Source: Lacinutrix sp. (lineage in GTDB: Bacteria; Bacteroidota; Bacteroidia; Flavobacteriales; Flavobacteriaceae). Taken from it: a stretch of DNA of 64,000 nucleotides. How positions within the stretch are numbered: the stretch's first letter is position 1; each line of letters begins with the position of its first letter. Below are positions 33,035-59,058 of this stretch, one piece after another. The DNA is taken from NCBI RefSeq assembly GCF_029238095.1, contig NZ_JAQWGS010000027.1, positions 1 through 64,000 on the forward strand. Reading direction: 5' to 3'. The position numbers and the translations under genes were made by a program. The notes below the pieces were generated by a model. It made no database searches, was not told the origin of the DNA, and was given only the letters and a program-made list of their open reading frames with translations.

Positions 33035-34159
33035 ATGAACAAATTAGCGACTATATTAATGATTATTCTCTTTGCCAACACTTCGCTTTCTCAAAACAAC
33101 AACTATTCCAAATTATGGAGTGACGTTGAAAATTTTGAAGTTGAAGGTCTACCAAAATCTGCTTTAAAAGTTTTAGAGAAAATAGAGACTATTGCAAAAG
33201 CCGAAAATAATGCACCACAGCTTATTAAAATAATGCTCTTTAAAAGTAAGTTTATGCTTACTCTAGAAGAGGATGCGCAGCTTAATATTATAAATGCGTT
33301 TAGAGCAGAAATTAAAGTAAGCCAAGCACCAACTAAAAACGTGTTAGAAAACATTCTAGCCACTTTATATTGGCAATATTTTCAGCAAAACCGATGGAAA
33401 TTTTATAATCGTACAAAAACTAACGAGAAAGTAGACACGGTAGATTTTAGAACTTGGGATTTAGAAACCTTATTTGAAGAAGTACACACGCATTATAAAA
33501 ATTCTCTAGACAACGGATTGATTTTACAGCAAACCAGTTTAGAAAATTTTGATGTTGTTATAGATAAACAAAAAGATTCTAGAATTTATAGACCAACACT
33601 TTTCGATTTTTTAGCACACAATGCGCTTATATTCTATAAACATCAAGAAAGTAAAATCACAAGACCTGCTTATAAGTTTAGTATCGATGATGCTGCTTAC
33701 CTCTCGCCTGCTAATGAATATGCTAGGTTAAAAATAAAATCTAAAGACACGTTATCTCTAGAGTTAAATGCTATAAAATTATATCAAGATTTAATTAAAT
33801 TCCATTTAAAAGACAAAGCGCCTTACGCACTGGCAGACGCTAATAAAGAACGCTTAGATTTTGTAAAACAACATGCTACATTTAAAGCTAAAGATTCGGT
33901 TTACATTGCTGCACTTGAAGCTGAAATAGAAAAACATAATAAACACGAAGTCTCTACTTTATATGCTTTTAAATTAGCTTCAATTTTAAAGACTCAAGGT
34001 ATTTCTTACAAAGCTGAAACCAATGCAGAAGTACGTTGGAAAATTAAAAAAGCGATTGCTATTTGCGATGCAGCTATTTCAAAATCCAGTATACTTATAG
34101 GTCACTTCTTCTGCGATACCAAAAACATTAGAACACAACCAAGGAATAAACGCATTTAA
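33035..34159 (+). pseudogene. Truncated N-terminal part of an alpha-2-macroglobulin family protein
   Basis: NNYSKLWSDVENFEVEGLPKSALKVLEKIETIAKAENNAPQLIKIMLFKSKF...ILATLYWQYFQQNRWKFYNRTKT...DFRTWDL resembles the N-terminus of very large flavobacterial A2M proteins; homology-like sequence ends near 34087, then 24 unrelated codons to stop. Confidence 0.75.
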
Positions 34160-34309
34160 TGCTTCAAATGGATATTTAAAAATTACATACCAATATGGAA
34201 ATGCTCCATTATTTTGAAAACATATAAATAGTATGAAATAGATAAAAAGAAATCTAAAACCTATTTTTTGAAATTTTGACCATTGAGGTGCTAAGTTTTC
34301 AATTTTCAT
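34079..34309 (-). pseudogene. Truncated N-terminal part of a DoxX-like membrane protein
   Basis: MKIENLAPQWSKFQKIGFRFLFIYFILFICFQNNGAFPYW... ends abruptly ...AEEVTYKYTGF* at the same junction as the opposite-strand truncated gene. Confidence 0.6.
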
Positions 34310-34449
34310 GTAAAGTTTAATATTTATTAAACCTAAAAATAATGAAAATATAATTATTTAGAATATTAAAATAACTGTTCGTGATTATTTTAGATTTTAA
34401 TATCTTTAACATATTGTATTTATTTTTAATTAAAAAAACGATTTAGAAT

Positions 34450-34899
34450 ATGTTACTTTATAAAAAAACACAATACGGAAAACTAGTTATAATAATATTA
34501 ACTGTTGTGGTAATTTCTATTCTAACACCTTTTATTCTACAATCTGGAGACAACCCAATATCATGGTTTTATTTAGCCTCTATTGTATTACTCTTACTTT
34601 TAGTTGCCTTAACATTTTACAAATTGACTATTACAATAGATCATGAAAAAATAGAAGCTAAATTTGGCATAGGTTTACTTAAACGTTCACTAAAAATTAA
34701 AGATATTAATTATGATTCTATAGAAAGCATTAAAGTACCTGCTCTTTATGGAATTGGTATTAGATTAACACCTCATGGCTGGTTATATAATGTAAGTATT
34801 GGAAATGCTATTAAAATAAAATCTAACAATAAAACGTTTTTTGTAGGTACGGAAGATTTTAAAACCATTCATTCAGTTTTACTGAAGCTTAAAAAATAA
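34450..34899 (+). CDS. Small membrane protein, bacterial PH-domain-like
   Basis: Two N-terminal TM segments, then FYKLTITIDHEKIEAKFGIGLLKRSLKIKDI...KTFFVGTEDFKTI. Confidence 0.55.
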   Translation: MLLYKKTQYGKLVIIILTVVVISILTPFILQSGDNPISWFYLASIVLLLLLVALTFYKLTITIDHEKIEAKFGIGLLKRSLKIKDINYDSIESIKVPALYGIGIRLTPHGWLYNVSIGNAIKIKSNNKTFFVGTEDFKTIHSVLLKLKK

Positions 34900-41479: not shown

Positions 41480-41710
41480 ATGAAAATACTTAAAGTAATT
41501 TTTCACTTTCTACTAATCTTACTACTAACAATAGTAACACAAGCAAAACAAGCTCAAGTTTTCGAAATGAAAACCATCTTAAATTACGAAACTGAAGCTA
41601 TTTGTAATGAATTAAATATTACAGCGTCTAATCTATGGGTAATTATACACAGAGCACGAACTGCTATGGCTGGTTGTCTAGAAAAAAAATTGGTTTTAAA
41701 AAATGAGTAA
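41480..41710 (+). pseudogene. Chimeric remnant: foreign hydrophobic N-terminus fused to region 4 of a sigma-70 factor
   Basis: Residues 1-21 MKILKVIFHFLLILLLTIVTQ are TM/signal-like; residues 23 onward KQAQVFEMKTILNYETEAICNELNITASNLWVIIHRARTAM are a sigma region 4 helix-turn-helix; regions 1-3 absent. Confidence 0.75.
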
Positions 41711-57824: not shown

Positions 57825-58625
57825 GTGATGACTGTTAATAAAGACACATTTTTAAAATCTGATTTGTTAGAAAGATATCTAACAGGTCTAACCAATTCTC
57901 AAGAAAACCTTGAGGTAGAACACTATATTAATACTTTTCCTGAAGTAAAAGAAGCCTACCATACACTTGAAAATAAATTAGAATTAGTTGCTTTTGCAAA
58001 TGCAGAAGAGGCTCCTATACATTTACTAGGTTCAATTTTAGAAACATTGGATAATAAACCAGTAATGACTCTAAAAACCAAACCAAACAAATCGTGGTTT
58101 ATTTTTGGTATTGCTGCTAGCATAGCGACATTAATTTTTGCTGGAAGTTCGCTCTACTTTTTTGTTCAAAATCAAGATTTATTAGATGAAAACCAAGTAA
58201 TTGTTGATGAACTCTATGATTTAAGAAGCGATATTGACGAAAACAACTTAAAACTTGAGGCATTATCTGAAGAATTTTCAAGATTAAATAATCCTGAAAC
58301 CGAAAAATACATTTTAAATGGTAATGGTCGAGCCAAAAATTTGAAGACTATAGCGTACATCAATCCTAAAGAAAAAACATCTTTAATAGATGTGGTTTCT
58401 TTACCAATTTTACCAAAAGATCAAGAGTATCAAATTTGGGCAGAGTTACAAGATAAGCAAGTTAATTTAGGAATATTAAGTCCTTCAGACAGACGATTGC
58501 AACAAATTCCTTATACCAAAGATGCACTTGGCTTAAGTATTACCATTGAACAGAAAGGCGTTAAACCTAACAAAAACACCACAGACACTCCTGTAGCAGA
58601 AATAGAGTTAAAAATTGGAGAATAA
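57825..58625 (+). CDS. Anti-sigma factor, RskA-like
   Basis: Single TM (FIFGIAASIATLIFAGSSLYFFV); C-terminal LPKDQEYQIWAELQDKQVNLGIL...PVAEIELKIGE; directly follows the ECF sigma gene. Confidence 0.85.
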   Translation: MMTVNKDTFLKSDLLERYLTGLTNSQENLEVEHYINTFPEVKEAYHTLENKLELVAFANAEEAPIHLLGSILETLDNKPVMTLKTKPNKSWFIFGIAASIATLIFAGSSLYFFVQNQDLLDENQVIVDELYDLRSDIDENNLKLEALSEEFSRLNNPETEKYILNGNGRAKNLKTIAYINPKEKTSLIDVVSLPILPKDQEYQIWAELQDKQVNLGILSPSDRRLQQIPYTKDALGLSITIEQKGVKPNKNTTDTPVAEIELKIGE

Positions 58626-58629
58626 AACT

Positions 58630-59058
58630 TTATTGAGAATAAAAAAAAGCGCCTACCATTCCAAAGTTTACACCGTAAACATTAGCATCGTAAAAATTAG
58701 TTGCAAAAGCACCTGGATAAGTCTCAATACCACTAAAACCTTTAGCACTACTTACAATTAAATACAATACTGCTGCGCCAACTGCTCCACCCAATACTTG
58801 AGCTATAATATATCCAGGCAATTCTTTACTATTAAATCGTCCTCCCATAAATAGTCCAATAGAAACTGCTGGATTAAAATGACCACCCGAAATATGGCCT
58901 AAAGCATAAGCTCCTGTAAGAACCGTAAGTCCAAATGCTAGTGAGACTCCTACAAGTCCAATACCTACATCTGCAACACCTGCAGCTAATACTGCACTAC
59001 CACAACCACCAAGTACTAACCAGAAAGTACCAATAAATTCTGCTAATAGTTTTTTCAT
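58630..59058 (-). pseudogene. Truncated aquaporin Z-like MIP channel (N-terminal half only)
   Basis: [27 protein letters not shown]...[20 protein letters not shown] contains the first NPA, but the protein ends at 142 aa ([10 protein letters not shown]) without the second NPA half. Confidence 0.75.

Follow-up and report, generated by a model that had tools for sequence, protein, structure and literature searches.

The window is a 64,000-nucleotide stretch of DNA, the first 64 kb of contig C27 (299,581 bp) in the draft genome of a Lacinutrix species, hereafter G000, whose assembly comprises 2.32 Mb in 27 contigs and is 89% complete. Two convergent reading frames overlap in it by 81 bases: a forward-strand frame of 374 aa that opens with an ATG (33035–34159) and a reverse-strand frame of 76 aa (34309–34079). 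The forward frame starts as the 5′ remnant of an alpha-2-macroglobulin (A2M) gene (33035–34085, forward strand), corresponding to residues 1–350 of a large thioester-type A2M with a signal peptide and a helical, TPR-like N-terminal region, and then reads through 24 codons of unrelated sequence to a stop (34086–34159, forward strand), a segment that lies antisense to the second gene and for which no homologue was found in the genomes searched. The reverse frame (34079–34309, reverse strand) is the 5′ remnant of a gene for an integral-membrane protein, holding approximately 71 of 427 residues, and its last codons and stop are antisense A2M sequence. Comparison of both sides with the DNA of relatives places a putative deletion junction at 34084–34087. 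To its right, an intergenic stretch (34310–34449) takes the position occupied in two relatives, G004 and G005, by a DUF4136 lipoprotein gene that is absent in G000, and an intact neighbour of 149 aa (34450–34899, forward strand; 74–76% identity) anchors the right side of the scar, its neighbourhood being the same in G001, G004 and G005. An Rfam search of the window gave no match.

The forward frame finds matches in 18 of the 31 genomes searched, including all 13 of the genus. Its residues 1–350 align without gaps to residues 1–350 of the relatives, at 64–83% identity; the alignments end at query residue 350–361, and the relatives' frame continues to approximately 2,030–2,200 aa, their full-length proteins having 2,026–2,192 aa. 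Beyond the breakpoint the relatives read KFPxSKGAEQC.., from which the read-through codons of the window differ. The initial annotation, made from the letters of the window, had described an A2M N terminus up to approximately 34087 followed by 24 unrelated codons antisense to the reverse frame, and the alignments bear this out. The A2M gene is present in all 12 other Lacinutrix genomes and is full length wherever this can be judged: in G006 it is interrupted by a contig end, with its 3′ part located on another contig, and in G008 it is disrupted by frameshifts that are typical of that assembly. Across the Flavobacteriaceae, 72 of the 73 A2M loci whose downstream DNA suffices for a judgement are full length; the one exception is again the frameshifted G008 assembly. 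The sole short A2M among the relatives (L044, from L. neustonica) was considered as a second natural loss and rejected, because in that assembly radC, mpl and obg, too, are spread over different frames.

In a full-length orthologue, the MG2, bait-region, A2M and bMG10 domains (Pfam) all lie past residue 500, with the CNEQ thioester motif at residue 1584. Because all of these domains are downstream of residue 500, the stub matches no Pfam or NCBIfam profile, the MG, bait-region and A2M domains and the CxEQ motif being absent from it; its assignment to the A2M family rests on the full-length orthologues. Without macroglobulin domains, bait region or CxEQ thioester, the stub would be unable to trap proteases, and we infer that it is a remnant that has lost its function and not a working member of the family. 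An AlphaFold2 model of the forward frame is all-helical and TPR-like (mean pLDDT 79); confidence fades just after residue 350, and the read-through tail is disordered (pLDDT < 50). An intact Flavobacteriaceae A2M (L028:2753–9154) additionally contains a SusC/RagA-type module of CarboxypepD_reg and plug domains, at residues 1198–1322, between the bait-region and A2M domains; the length of this module differs among species.

The reverse frame aligns to approximately residues 8–71 of a 427-aa protein in G004, G005 and G018, at 44–48% identity, and to the corresponding part of a 654-aa form in G010. The second gene is full length, at 427 aa, in G005 and G018; in G004 the 427-aa gene (L125:1979–3262) is split into ORFs of 259 and 154 aa. 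The initial annotation was right that this frame breaks off at the same bases as the A2M gene, but its name for the frame, DoxX-like, does not hold: DoxX and related Pfam and NCBIfam models match neither the stub nor two 427-aa and two 654-aa relatives, the best hit being MauE at E = 2.1. As neither the stub nor its full-length relatives match these models, we refer to the second gene as encoding an uncharacterised membrane protein. For neither frame did a full-length homologue of its own size (374 aa and 76 aa) turn up. G000 lacks the DUF4136 gene that G004 and G005 carry next to the 427-aa gene; as the second gene keeps its promoter end, this loss would be a separate event. A single DUF4136 paralogue, 31% identical, is present in G000 on contig C15.

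At the junction, DNA comparison with relatives shows that the A2M side extends through 34085 (..TATTTCAAAAT). The A2M-side relatives all read ..GCxATTxxxAArTTyCC.., with which the window agrees to ..GCTATTTCAAAAT (34085) before diverging. The second-gene side begins at approximately 34084–34086 (CCAGTATAC.., reverse complement ..GTATACTGGAT), where the relatives diverge from the window: on the opposite strand their sequence is ..ACT AAT GGA AGT GGA.. and that of the window ..TAT ACT GGA T, after which the similarity is lost at the same position. Both homologies end at 34084–34087, leaving at most approximately 2 nt (AT, 34084–34085) that can be assigned to either side. We found no direct repeat around the junction and no insertion sequence at it, and a 27-mer spanning the junction is unique in the G000 genome. 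A deletion mediated by an insertion sequence or by repeats was considered and rejected, since the junction has no repeat and its sequence does not recur in the genome. These features would be compatible with illegitimate recombination or end joining.

The unbroken arrangement is preserved in G018, a member of the same family from another genus, in which the A2M gene and the second gene are both intact, convergent and 33 bp apart. In that genome, 6.6 kb separate the positions corresponding to the two breakpoints. Among the other Lacinutrix, an intact A2M gene never directly adjoins an intact 427-aa gene; in the Lacinutrix genome G010, an intact A2M gene and the 654-aa form of the second gene occur with other genes in between. 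The missing part of the A2M gene was not found elsewhere in the G000 assembly, where it matches SusC-type plug domains and a single distantly related A2M, and neither was the rest of the second gene, an absence that, at 89% completeness, is not proof. Taken together, the single end point, the intact pair in G018, the gene order described below and the absence of the missing parts support the earlier proposal that one deletion joined two convergent genes and broke both, and a loss of approximately 6.5–6.6 kb would agree with its expectation of several missing kilobases. We propose that an illegitimate deletion of this size, using short or no homology, would have joined codon 350 of the A2M gene to approximately codon 71 of the convergent membrane-protein gene, removing both 3′ ends and the shared terminator region and turning both genes into pseudogenes.

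A break in A2M could also have arisen if the obg block (34.1–49.4 kb) had been inserted beside it by translocation, and in G002, G005 and G007 the A2M gene and obg, with its block, do lie apart. However, the order of the entire window, mpl-tpr-A2M-...-hyp34450-obg-hpt/adk-purK-purE-M3 peptidase-ECF sigma-...-g50320-g55009, is complete in G001, and most of it is also found in G003, G009, G011 and G018, so that the separated order in the three genomes is the derived state. Since the wider gene order of the window is ancestral, a simple deletion explains the junction and a translocation, contradicted by the wider synteny, is unneeded; we regard it as scarcely credible. The homologues of both frames stop matching at one point, and the flanks are colinear with those of relatives.

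The age of the deletion was estimated from pairwise dN/dS together with lineage-unique changes. Over codons 1–349, the dN/dS of the stub against five relatives is 0.12–0.14, compared with 0.075–0.136 among those relatives. The stub carries 16 unique amino-acid changes, the highest number among eight genomes, and 14 unique silent changes, also the highest. The stub has not accumulated amino-acid changes in excess, and hence shows no sign of long relaxed evolution. A low dN/dS would follow from a recent deletion, from selection on the stub or from a gene that is intact in the cells, of which a recent deletion is the simplest; on these rates, the deletion is probably recent relative to the divergence of the species. 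Selection on the stub would mean that the remnant works as a short secreted protein consisting of the TPR-like N-terminal domain. Its frame is open, its N terminus resembles a signal peptide and its helical model is confident to residue 350, in addition to the low dN/dS. However, a recent deletion predicts low dN/dS equally, the 16 unique amino-acid changes count against this reading, no relative has a naturally short form, and the break interrupts the final helical repeat, after which comes the disordered 24-residue tail. A functional short protein is therefore very improbable, and we retain the reading of the stub as the product of a recent deletion.

The A2M scar is not the only broken gene on its contig. 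We compared C27 with matched stretches of G002, G007 and G011, in addition to shorter pieces of G001 and G005, applying an identical rule to each genome. Six of 159 C27 ORFs with orthologues are broken as opposed to none of 431 in three control genomes (G002, G007 and G011, after removal of three raw truncation hits that were ORFs antisense to longer genes; Fisher p = 0.0004), and counting deletions only there are four on C27 (p = 0.005), the p values being a guide only as the truncation rule was fixed after the first three scars had been seen. Besides the deletion of approximately 6.6 kb at the A2M gene, a second scar (41480–41710, forward strand) affects an ECF sigma factor with orthologues of 184–191 aa in G001, G005, G007 and G011: the start of another gene (MKILKVIFHFLLILLLTIVTQA..) runs in frame into the C-terminal 48 residues of the sigma factor, whose first 140 are lost. 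The third (58630–59058, reverse strand) lies in an aquaporin of the MIP family that is full length in G001, G002, G007 and G012; the last 96 residues or so are lost and approximately 350 bp are absent, at the convergent boundary with the gene at 57825–58625. The fourth, at C27:217243–217920, is a deletion of approximately 3.0 kb measured relative to G002, G007 and G011. The remaining two broken genes carry a nonsense codon (C27:213646–214104) and a frameshift (C27:242477–243531); the loci used for the further broken genes of C27 are L147/L148/L149/L150.

An artefact of library or assembly would leave the real genome intact, the junction having been created either by fragments that became chimeric, as can happen in whole-genome amplification, or by an assembler bridging strain variants. 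The assembly is a draft of 27 contigs at 89% completeness, the unrelaxed dN/dS of the stub is as expected of a gene intact in the cell, and the nonsense and frameshift cases on C27 could be sequence errors. Against this, the three further deletion junctions on C27 are likewise local and colinear, and the A2M junction lies inside a 300-kb contig, with no repeat of a length that would mislead an assembler. The two genes brought together sit side by side in G018, and their order and orientation at the junction are the expected ones, which a random chimera would not produce. With natural neighbours joined in their proper arrangement, well inside a long contig and with no repeat, a chimeric or minority-strain junction keeps only a small probability, and we infer that the junction exists in the cells themselves.

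The G000 assembly, at 2.3 Mb and 89% completeness, is smaller than the 3.0–4.6 Mb of relatives that are at least 99% complete, which, together with the excess of broken genes on C27, suggests that the lineage is losing genes. A single recent illegitimate deletion of approximately 6.5–6.6 kb, one of several gene-breaking mutations in a lineage that may be losing genes, is in our view highly probable as the account of the locus. In bacteria that are losing genes, pseudogenes can be formed by short-homology deletions. Like such pseudogenes, the scars of G000 are gene remnants fused by deletion, lacking insertion sequences and with next to no homology at the junction, and more than one occurs on a single contig; they show no difference in kind. 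In G000 the remnants are still unmutated, and the 3′ ends of a convergent pair have been removed. More tentatively, and with a little less than even confidence, the cluster could represent early gene erosion, in which short-homology deletions break genes far faster than in sister species and the remnants are still unmutated. If C27 is typical, its rate of approximately 4 deletions per 300 kb would extrapolate to possibly some 30 in the assembled 2.3 Mb.

The loss leaves G000 with a reduced set of A2M genes. A bMG10 domain search finds one copy in G000, as opposed to two or three in each of 12 other genomes. Every other Lacinutrix has at least two A2M genes, and G000 retains only the one linked to PBP1C (G000:C8:168106–173691; L140:107–5692), which is intact, encodes 1,861 aa and has a bMG10 match and a CVEQ motif. 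This gene belongs to the same family as the lost one but is a distant paralogue, with 23% identity over 213 residues, and not a copy of it. Type I bacterial A2Ms, such as those of Escherichia coli and Salmonella, carry a thioester with a CxEQ motif (PMC5764988, PMC4498604) and are thought to trap proteases entering the periplasm together with PBP1C (PMC5764988). The full-length Lacinutrix orthologues of the stub share with them the MG2, bait-region, A2M and bMG10 domains and a CNEQ motif, whereas the window copy stops before all of these domains. The intact Flavobacteriaceae gene also differs from the type I genes in adjoining mpl and the TPR gene, not PBP1C, and in its SusC-type CarboxypepD_reg/plug module. 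A literature search returned background on bacterial A2M types and nothing on this locus. The expected effect would be the loss of one protease trap, the additional, mpl-linked copy, with the system as such kept.

For annotation, 33035–34159 and 34079–34309 would be better described as pseudogenes than as short proteins. For the biology of the genus, the mpl-linked A2M, which is found in every other Lacinutrix genome searched, would appear to be dispensable when the PBP1C-linked A2M is kept. The event itself is routine gene loss, a fresh example of a well-known kind, and what makes it mildly interesting is that other recent scars cluster with it. If the excess of scars extends genome-wide, G000 would show genome reduction at its very beginning, its deletion junctions still fresh enough for the mechanism to be read from them.
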